From: Tumebacillus sp. BK434
GTDB taxonomy: Bacteria > Bacillota > Bacilli > Tumebacillales > Tumebacillaceae
Assembly (NCBI RefSeq): GCF_004340785.1
Contig: NZ_SLXS01000001.1
Location: 62,001-126,000 of the forward strand
Direction: 5' to 3'
Length of the DNA: 64,000 nt
The notes beneath the pieces were generated by a model, which saw only the letters and a list, made by a program, of their open reading frames with translations, did not search any database and was not told where the DNA came from. Positions within the stretch are counted from its first letter, which is position 1. Each line of letters opens with the position of its first letter. Made by a program: the position numbers and the translations under genes. This document shows, in pieces, positions 10,228 to 12,098 of the stretch.

Positions 10228-10254
10228 GCCTTTTAGATTGACGAAGCAACTACG

Positions 10255-10286
10255 AGGAACAGAGCATCCGCTCTGTTCCTTTTTTT
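10255..10286 (+). terminator. Intrinsic terminator after pnp
   Basis: Perfect 11-base arms AGGAACAGAGC (10255-10265) and GCTCTGTTCCT (10270-10280), four-base loop, then seven T. Confidence 0.92.
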
Positions 10287-10347
10287 CATGAGGTCTAGTC
10301 CTTTTTGAAGTCGCATAGACTGCCATTGAGGTTAGGAGGACAACCAG

Positions 10348-11085
10348 ATGAGAAAAATAACGTACAGGAACAGAAACAGATTGCATTCCGGCAAACTGGT
10401 CGCCGCCTGTGCCGTTTGCCTGTTGATGTTTTCCGGTATCACCGATACGCTGGCCATCAACACGTATGTCCGCGATCTGAAAGGACTGGCGATCCCGGTG
10501 CAGACCTACCGCGTCGAGCATCCGGTGGTGGCACTGACCTTTGATGTGTCGCAGGACAGCGACCCAGTCGCGCAGATTTTGGTCAAACTGCGGACCGAAC
10601 GGGCACGCGCGACCTTTTTCCTGACCGGAGAATGGGTGGAGCGACACCCGCATCTGGCCCGCGCCATCGTCAAAGAAGGGCACGAGGTGGGGCGCAGTCT
10701 GTATAGCAGCCGCACCGCATCCGAACTTTCGCCAGAGCAACTGCGCCAAGAGCTGCAAAAGACGGACGACGCTTGGCGTGCGGCACACCTGCCGGAGGTA
10801 GACCTGTTTCGCGTGCCCGACGGTGAAACGAACGGACAAGTTGCCAAAGAGATCCGCAAACGTCATGAAAATCTGATCGCCTGGTCGGTCACCGCCGTCC
10901 CGGAATCACCGGGAGCTGCTGCCGGCGTCTGGAGCGGGCTGCCGTCTGCGTTGTCGGCCGGAGACATCGTGCGCCTGCGCGCCGACCGGCTCACTTTGGA
11001 GGGGATCAGCACAGTGCTGACAGGAATTCGCGGCGCCGGCTATGACGTGAAGACGATCTCTTCGATGCAGGAGGAGGTAGAGTGA
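10348..11085 (+). CDS. Polysaccharide deacetylase-like protein lacking the metal site
   Basis: A 245-residue protein with an N-terminal signal/membrane segment (about 15-37) and a NodB-like domain. The fold is recognisable from VALTFDVSQ at about 61-69, RARATFFLTGEW and GHEVG near 111-115. However, the first motif reads TFDVS instead of TFDDG, and the second motif, normally a His pair four residues apart, reads RSLYSSR with no histidine. All metal ligands are therefore gone, so catalytic deacetylation is unlikely. The gene overlaps ylxY (GTGA junction), suggesting the two extracytoplasmic proteins act together. A ligand-binding or scaffolding role in cell wall or spore cortex is inference. 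Confidence 0.75.
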   Translation: MRKITYRNRNRLHSGKLVAACAVCLLMFSGITDTLAINTYVRDLKGLAIPVQTYRVEHPVVALTFDVSQDSDPVAQILVKLRTERARATFFLTGEWVERHPHLARAIVKEGHEVGRSLYSSRTASELSPEQLRQELQKTDDAWRAAHLPEVDLFRVPDGETNGQVAKEIRKRHENLIAWSVTAVPESPGAAAGVWSGLPSALSAGDIVRLRADRLTLEGISTVLTGIRGAGYDVKTISSMQEEVE

Positions 11086-12065
11086 CTGTGAAACGACCGT
11101 ATTTGATCGTGACGCTGACCAAACGCCGTCTGTTGCTTTGTGCGGCGGCGTTTTTGTTTTTGGCAGGCGGGCTGGTCTTGAGCGGCAGCCACGAGCAGCA
11201 GGTCGCCGTCGTCAATGTGATGACAGGGGTGAGCCACGATTCGCTCAAACAGCGGATCGAACTGCTCGCCAAAGAGTATGACAAACAACCGATCGACGCC
11301 AAGAACGATCCCGTTTGGCGGGCCATCCCCGGATTGAACGGGCTGAAAGTCGATGTCGATGCCACGTATGAAAAAACGAAAAAAGCGGGCGGCGACCGCA
11401 TCCAGGTGGTGGCGGAGCAGATTCCGCCAAAAGTGCATCTGAAAGACCTCGGCGCTGTGCCGATCTACAAAGCAAATGCGCAAAAAAAGCAAATCGCGCT
11501 TATGATCAACGTTGCTTGGGGGACAGAATATATACCAGAGATGCTCGCCACCTTGGCTGAACACCAGGTGAAAGCGACTTTCTTCCTCGACGGCAGTTGG
11601 ACGAAAAAGAATCCGGACGTCGCGAAGCAGATCGCGGCGGCCGGTCATGAGCTCGGCAACCACGCCTACTCGCACCCCGATATGTCACGGATGGGCGTCT
11701 CCGATCAGCTGCGCCAGATCACCCGCACCAACGAAGTGATCGAGGCGGCGACAGGCATCCGGCCGAAGCTGTTCGCACCGCCGTCCGGTGCGTACGCCGA
11801 TTCCACCGTCTCGACCGCCTACAAGCAGGGCATGTACACGATCCTCTGGTCGCTCGACACGGTCGACTGGAAAAAGCCACCCGCTGCGACGATCGTCAAC
11901 CGCGTGCTGTCCCGCGCGGAAAACGGTTCGATGGTGCTGATGCATCCGACCGAACCAACTCGCAACGCGCTGCGTACGATAGTACCAAGTCTCGTCAAAA
12001 AGGGCTATGGCCTGGTCACCGTTTCCGAACTGCTGGACGAAACGCGCCCTGTGCCATCCTCTTAA
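11082..12065 (+). CDS. ylxY: YlxY-type sporulation polysaccharide deacetylase family protein
   Basis: A 327-residue protein with one N-terminal membrane anchor (about 14-34) and a C-terminal NodB domain. Gene order (pnp-ylxY-mlpA-ymxH-dpaA) and sequence match YlxY, a family restricted to endospore formers. The His pair is kept (HAYSH, H194 and H198), and RPKLFAPPSGAY and LWSLDTVDW resemble later NodB motifs, but the first motif is MINVAWG (about 141-147) instead of TFDDG, so the usual catalytic aspartates are replaced. Its activity is therefore uncertain. GTG 11082 overlaps the preceding stop; a GTG at 11088 is better spaced from GGAGG (11073-11077) and is equally possible. Confidence 0.85.
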   Translation: MTVKRPYLIVTLTKRRLLLCAAAFLFLAGGLVLSGSHEQQVAVVNVMTGVSHDSLKQRIELLAKEYDKQPIDAKNDPVWRAIPGLNGLKVDVDATYEKTKKAGGDRIQVVAEQIPPKVHLKDLGAVPIYKANAQKKQIALMINVAWGTEYIPEMLATLAEHQVKATFFLDGSWTKKNPDVAKQIAAAGHELGNHAYSHPDMSRMGVSDQLRQITRTNEVIEAATGIRPKLFAPPSGAYADSTVSTAYKQGMYTILWSLDTVDWKKPPAATIVNRVLSRAENGSMVLMHPTEPTRNALRTIVPSLVKKGYGLVTVSELLDETRPVPSS

Positions 12066-12068
12066 ATT

Positions 12069-12098
12069 GGTTCGATGTGGCATCGAGCCCGGTTTTTT
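12069..12098 (+). terminator. Intrinsic terminator after ylxY
   Basis: GGTTCGATG (12069-12077) pairs with CATCGAGCC (12081-12089) with one G-T wobble and a three-base loop; six T follow at 12093-12098. Confidence 0.8.

Follow-up and report, generated by a model that had tools for sequence, protein, structure and literature searches.

A conserved putative NodB-fold pseudoenzyme genetically coupled to ylxY (swsB) in Tumebacillaceae

Genes and signals at the ORF1-ylxY locus

We analyzed a window of 64,000 nucleotides from Tumebacillus sp. BK434, in which two adjacent genes for NodB-domain proteins lie in the order pnp, terminator, ORF1, ylxY, terminator-like hairpin, and a gene for an M16-type protease (Table 1). 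The genes past the protease gene are presumably ymxH and the dipicolinate synthase gene, judging from the B. subtilis gene order and from the translations. The corresponding locus of T. avium (NZ_CP021434) is 85% identical to that of the window, and in the alignment the hairpin with its T-run upstream of ORF1 is also seen in the other six genomes of the family. A first-pass annotation of this DNA had the two genes overlapping by four bases, which is correct if ylxY starts with the GTG at 11082; with the GTG at 11088, there is a 2-base gap instead. In 7/7 family genomes, the stop codon of ORF1 shares bases with a potential ylxY start codon, as GTGA or ATGA, and we infer that ORF1 and ylxY are co-transcribed. 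Our search of the open-licence literature found no paper on this gene pair.

Table 1. Features of the ORF1-ylxY locus (positions in the window)
Feature	Position	Strand	Remarks
Terminator-like hairpin and T-run after pnp	10254-10281	+	12-pair stem; separates pnp from ORF1-ylxY
Promoter-like element GGTCTAG-N14-GCATAnA	10292-10319	+	Same spacing in 7/7 upstream regions
AGGAGG, ribosome-binding site of ORF1	10334-10339	+	From the sequence
ORF1	10348-11085	+	245 aa, predicted NodB-fold pseudoenzyme; N-terminal membrane/signal segment
ORF1 codons 15-52	10390-10503	+	Membrane/juxtamembrane segment, best-conserved part of ORF1
ORF1 codons D66 and V67	10543-10548	+	Catalytic base kept (D66), metal Asp lost (V67)
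ORF1 codons S117 to S121	10696-10710	+	Both metal-His positions lost
ORF1 codon R155	10810-10812	+	Motif-3 Arg kept
ORF1 codon R211	10978-10980	+	Arg replacing the motif-5 His needed by PdaA and SwsB
GGAGGAGG, ribosome-binding site of ylxY	11070-11077	+	Within the ORF1 3′ end; from the sequence
GTGA	11082-11085	+	Overlap of the ORF1 stop with the earliest candidate start of ylxY
ylxY/swsB	11082-12065	+	327 aa, predicted muramic-delta-lactam cyclase; alternative start 11088
Terminator-like hairpin 3′ of ylxY	12069-12089	+	

The promoter-like element upstream of ORF1 has a single match in the window, compared to 0.08 expected, and genome-wide the spaced pattern gave 10 matches and was rarer than its backward control (28). 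Of 101 regions upstream of ylxY or of its NodB neighbor, 35 contain CATAnA, the fraction in simple letter shuffles being 0.23. The weight of the element thus comes solely from its conservation in 7/7 orthologues. Its right half is similar to the -10 sequence recognized by mother-cell sigma factors; control by the sporulation sigma factor sigma-E is a guess, and the likeness to a sigma-E promoter is weak. The ylxY gene of B. subtilis is cited as sigma-E dependent, and for C. perfringens the same source reports that ylxY is not induced during sporulation (PMC9332280).

Fold, active-site motifs, and conservation of ORF1

Both proteins matched the NodB domain PF01522 well above its cut-off of 23.1 bits (ORF1, 77.8; YlxY, 114.7). 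An AlphaFold2 model of ORF1 (mean pLDDT 86.6) shows a single helix spanning residues 9-45, of which 38-44 are modeled with low confidence, followed by the NodB fold; instead of anchoring the protein, the N-terminal segment may be a signal peptide that is cleaved off. Among solved structures the best match of the model was the PdaB protein BA0150 (4M1B; Z 29.1, rmsd 1.8 over 195 residues), and several active CE4 enzymes matched with Z of 24-26. The kinship of ORF1 to NodB proteins is far greater than chance.

Where the active NodB paralogues of this genome have TFDDG and NHxxxH, ORF1 has TFDVS and GHEVGRSLYSSR. The annotation had stated that the metal aspartate and both metal histidines were missing, and our alignment with the active paralogues bears this out for 7/7 orthologues: Val is found at the metal-Asp position, and S/T and S/N/Y at the two metal-His positions, with no His pair. 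The motif-4 Asp is likewise replaced by Pro (motif 4 is lost) and the motif-5 His by Arg in all seven. Two positions are retained in all: D66, the Asp that is the catalytic base, and R155, the Arg of motif 3. Loss of the metal Asp alone says little, since PdaA, an active enzyme, has Asn there (TFDNG, 5/5 sequences). The telling losses, as read from these motifs, are both metal His and the motif-5 His; with these gone, ORF1 lacks residues that are needed for deacetylation and for cyclization of the PdaA/SwsB type, and it is without even the His that is essential to the SwsB cyclase. Besides D66 and R155, the residues R209, R211, D213, H112, and H173 are invariant in the seven orthologues, and no replacement His pair was found among the invariant residues.

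Orthologues of ORF1, all intact and 51 to 86% identical, are present in 7/7 Tumebacillaceae genomes examined, but at E 1e-28 no match was found in the seven other genomes of the order. A search of 84,980 named species, which may omit the window's own genome and its near kin, gave four Tumebacillus loci at least 51% identical to ORF1; the next best matches were 42% identical over a short segment and 30% over most of the length. As far as searched, the pseudoenzyme is confined to Tumebacillaceae. ORF1 is under purifying selection, with within-genus dN/dS of 0.134-0.141 (ylxY, 0.079-0.089) and, over all pairs, many of them near saturation, 0.13-0.33 (ylxY, 0.08-0.24). Taken together, these data support the view that ORF1 encodes a conserved NodB-fold pseudoenzyme that is genetically coupled to ylxY, as judged from sequence comparison.

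The conservation of ORF1 is inverted, the membrane/juxtamembrane segment being more conserved than the NodB domain, opposite to what is seen in YlxY and PdaB from these genomes. Of the residues preceding the NodB core and of those within it, 45% and 31% were invariant across the seven genomes in ORF1 (28/62 and 57/183), compared to 32% and 53% in YlxY and 24% and 73% in PdaB, for which the G004 sequence entered the alignment with too long an N terminus. Residues 15-52 of ORF1 are invariant at 26/38 positions versus 59/189 for residues 57-245 (Fisher p 3e-5); the limits of this segment were set after the data had been seen, and the whole N-terminal part compared to the core goes in the same direction.

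PdaB (YbaN; TIGR02764) is the closest known family, not only by structure but also as the best NCBIfam model of ORF1, at 109.5 bits, which is far below the cut-off of 237.4; the genome has a separate PdaB of its own that scores 238.9 bits, above the cut-off. Most PdaB proteins keep the His pair and 31/31 keep the motif-5 His, whereas ORF1 has neither. The PdaB structure 4M1B has itself been termed a pseudoenzyme and metal-free (PMC10967932, PMC6115787). PdaA (TIGR02884), an active deacetylase and cyclase (PMC12444981), has the NodB fold and the missing metal Asp in common with ORF1 but retains the His pair as well as the motif-5 His, and ORF1 scored 47.4 bits with its model against a cut-off of 298. 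YlxY/SwsB (TIGR02873; structures 7BKF, 6HPA, and 6HM9 of BA3943) is similar to ORF1 in having a NodB fold without the canonical motif 1; SwsB, however, is a lactam cyclase with the motif-5 His, and ORF1 lacks both that His and the N-terminal domain.

In a genome of the same order but another family (G010), a 196-amino-acid shortened NodB relic is located between pnp and ylxY (L083:767-1354). The relic is an open frame with a 4-base overlap with ylxY and a PF01522 score of 28.2 bits, and it represents either erosion that has gone further than in ORF1 or an erosion that took place independently.

YlxY, SwsB, and the NodB-ylxY tandems

The annotation had also counted YlxY as an eroded enzyme, on the grounds that it keeps its His pair (HAYSH) but has MINVAWG in place of TFDDG. 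The motifs are as described, but the erosion reading does not hold, since Asn is found at the catalytic base in every YlxY protein sampled and SwsB is an active cyclase. Among 99 distinct YlxY proteins of at least 295 amino acids, chosen by profile score and length with no motif filter, all had Asn at the catalytic base and Val or Ile at the metal-Asp position, and all kept the first His and the motif-5 His; the second His was His in 70 and Asp in 29, and the latter fits a metal-independent cyclase. B. subtilis SwsB (P50850, IPR014228) was reported in 2025 to be not a deacetylase but a muramic-delta-lactam cyclase that requires no transition metal, for which H282 is essential and which is active alone in vitro; no partner protein is named in the sections consulted (PMC12444981). 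In the 319-amino-acid YlxY of one locus (L198), L135, N137, A226, and H282 have the same numbers as in the SwsB paper, and therefore SwsB is YlxY. In the YlxY of the window, N143, A232, and H288 are found at the same motifs (Asn catalytic base, non-Arg motif 3, and motif-5 His).

The window YlxY has both the N-terminal and the NodB domain, with 7BKF aligned over residues 53-322. Its TIGR02873 score of 325.4 bits covers the full model (1-268 of 268) and is below the cut-off of 391.5, which must be regarded as strict because just 3/61 genomes of our relatives set pass it. The solved structures of a YlxY relative (BA3943) carry the title CE4 pseudoenzyme, a label that looks too strong after the cyclase work. 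Taken together, these data suggest one pseudoenzyme beside one repurposed enzyme rather than two eroded ones; the window YlxY is presumably active. What holds of the annotation's proposal is an ORF1 pseudoenzyme coupled to ylxY (7/7 genomes), with a non-catalytic partner acting on cortex glycans as the explanation that we favor, and not a pair of eroded enzymes. At L220, L223, L224, L225, and L191 we saw short YlxY-like proteins that lack the N-terminal domain and carry NVDWG, NVAWG, or NVVWG; three of them are encoded directly after pnp.

We next consider what lies directly upstream of ylxY, with PNP, NodB, and other labels taken from profiles built in this analysis. Loci comprised the 30 given plus further places, among the matches listed, that cover the N-terminal domain; duplicates (6 and 4 loci) and one non-YlxY locus were left out. 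For the relatives set, with 43 distinct loci, the upstream gene was PNP in 29, NodB in 7, and other in 3, with no gene called in 3 and too little sequence in 1; G005 is not among these, though its tandem is visible in the orthologue alignment. In a Bacillota sample of 56 distinct loci among the matches listed, four of which (L220, L223, L224, and L225) encode the short YlxY-like proteins, the corresponding numbers were PNP 29, NodB 22, other 2, no gene called 2, and too little sequence 1. The 22/56 leaves out L186-L190, which entered via NodB similarity (27/61 with them), and L191-L197, which are NodB matches of other kinds; at L191, the tandem partner is one of the short YlxY-like proteins.

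The gene before these 22 tandems was pnp in 5, LpxB-like in 7, LysM-type in 5, DinG-like in 3, an ABC permease in 1, and undetermined in 1, giving at least five gene neighborhoods in all; the LpxB-, DinG-, and LysM-type labels are motif reads, Pfam-checked for L229, L234, L251, L187, and L244 only. Since NodB precedes ylxY in 22/56 loci and in several neighborhoods, the NodB-YlxY pairing recurs. In clostridial loci such as L234 and L251, the gene directly upstream of the tandem encodes LysM together with Hydrolase_2 (SleB/CwlJ-type), with both domains confirmed by Pfam in two of the five LysM-type genes; such a neighbor ties the NodB-ylxY pair to cortex breakdown.

The NodB neighbors of ylxY fall into two sets. 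The first comprises 16 sequences, 15 from the sample, in which motif 1 is of the SFDAxWG type and all other catalytic residues are present. In the second (12 sequences, 7 from the sample), Glu replaces the catalytic Asp in 10/12, the metal Asp is absent in 12/12, and Arg or Lys takes the place of the motif-5 His in 6/12, namely the clostridial neighbors at L186, L188, L190, L230, L244, and L253, which resemble ORF1 at this position.

In both a quick and a careful tree, the ORF1 family lies among PdaB, YlxY, and clostridial groups but is set apart by a long branch. In the first tree, which gave a long-branch warning, ORF1 grouped with the G010 relic at a support of 82. In the second, careful tree, made without that relic and three distant paralogues, ORF1 joins PdaB with a support of 47/0, and the second set of NodB neighbors forms a group (99/92). 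Forced unions of ORF1 with the pnp-type neighbors (p-AU 0.226), YlxY (0.0747), or the other clostridial group (0.5) were not rejected, so that the trees neither join ORF1 to the clostridial ylxY-neighbor groups nor reject it from them.

Possible roles of ORF1 beside a lactam cyclase

Muramic-delta-lactam is required for spore germination. We tentatively favor the reading, a serious possibility on the sequence evidence, that ORF1 is a membrane-anchored, non-catalytic candidate partner for the SwsB cyclase while the cortex is assembled. The two proteins would be made together, most likely during sporulation, and the N-terminal helix of ORF1 would sit in the membrane with the NodB domain outside. 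There ORF1 may bind the cyclase, the cortex glycan, or both, and could place or tune SwsB while the latter closes muramic acid to muramic-delta-lactam. This is favored because the active site is lost and the gene retained in 7/7 genomes, with low dN/dS, a conserved promoter-like element behind the pnp terminator, and conserved coupling to ylxY, and because of the inverted conservation, the identity of YlxY as SwsB, and the recurring NodB-YlxY pairing. We count against it the unsettled tree placement, the weak sigma-E likeness, the lack of ylxY induction reported for C. perfringens, the possible cleaved signal peptide, and the low model confidence at residues 38-44. Since SwsB is active alone in vitro and pnp precedes ylxY in 29/43 loci of relatives, a partner is not generally needed. 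Non-catalytic partners of a spore former's deacetylase, PdaN, have been described, the inhibitor IpdA and the cofactor PdcF; unlike ORF1 they are described not as NodB proteins but as, respectively, an IseA homologue and a four-helix YkyA lipoprotein (PMC12700454), and they regulate PdaN, whereas the partner enzyme of ORF1 would be SwsB. With its inverted conservation, ORF1 would be a concrete, testable candidate for a SwsB partner, at a locus where an odd CE4 motif goes with a new reaction in one gene, ylxY, and with lost function in its neighbor.

It is also conceivable, if rather unlikely, that ORF1 serves the wall in its own right, as a structural component or by binding glycan, and that it is co-transcribed with ylxY for timing only and makes no contact with YlxY. 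Its intact NodB fold would suit such a role, and the CE4-family proteins BA0330 and BA0331, reported to be without deacetylase activity, can stabilize the wall (PMC4505593); these differ from ORF1 in being lipoproteins not tied to ylxY, and they carry an extra Fn3-like domain (PMC6115787). Speaking against this reading, the NodB domain, which would bind the glycan, is the less conserved part of ORF1, and the NodB-ylxY pairing recurs in other lineages and several neighborhoods. The five invariant residues D66, R155, R209, R211, and D213 might instead belong to an enzyme with changed, metal-free chemistry, its new site formed from Arg211, Arg155, and Asp66; YlxY itself is a case in which an unusual CE4 motif goes with a new reaction that needs no metal, and an Arg or Lys at the motif-5 His recurs in half of the second set of neighbors. 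We consider this quite improbable, as the His of the known metal-free and metal-dependent reactions (H222/H282) is missing and a core that is 31% invariant holds few such residues for an enzyme. A deacetylase with alternative metal ligands, which the annotation had named as the finding that would overturn its view, appears very improbable: H112 and H173 are invariant in the seven orthologues, but H112 is common to most NodB proteins of other groups, H173 aligns with Gly in those groups, before a strand and off the motif positions, and no His pair substitutes. We give equally little credence to the idea that ORF1 is a duplicate gene in the course of being lost. The missing active site would agree with this, as would G010, where only the shortened relic occupies the same place, but ORF1 is intact in 7/7 genomes with within-genus dN/dS of ∼0.14 and blocks of invariant residues, and even the relic has kept its reading frame and its 4-base overlap with ylxY.

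Gene order and the pattern of PdaA absence suggest a further reading, one that we regard as unlikely, in which the NodB-ylxY tandem is a split PdaA: where canonical PdaA is missing, NodB would deacetylate MurNAc and SwsB would cyclize the product, as a complex, with the deacetylase half dead in Tumebacillaceae. On this reading ORF1 would survive, with similarly low probability, as a subunit of SwsB that is anchored in the membrane and acts in targeting or allosterically, Arg having replaced its catalytic His. Hints in its favor are the 22/56 tandems, the LysM-Hydrolase_2 genes beside some of them, and the distribution of PdaA and CwlD. Canonical PdaA was not found at E 1e-60 in the seven Tumebacillaceae genomes (G000-G006), where CwlD-type and Hydrolase_2 proteins are present. 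We compared 60 hand-chosen genomes, 35 with the tandem (7 Tumebacillaceae, G010, and 27 of clostridial type; the genome of L191 is outside the 60) and 25 without. Canonical PdaA scored above its cut-off in 0/35 tandem genomes versus 8/25 others (Fisher p 0.0004), a test that takes no account of relatedness or incomplete assemblies, 4/8 of the PdaA genomes being of one family. The recurring NodB-SwsB pair is a candidate route to the lactam in spore formers without canonical PdaA. CwlD-type amidase matches were found in 58/60 of these genomes, and Hydrolase_2 proteins in 10/10 genomes tested.
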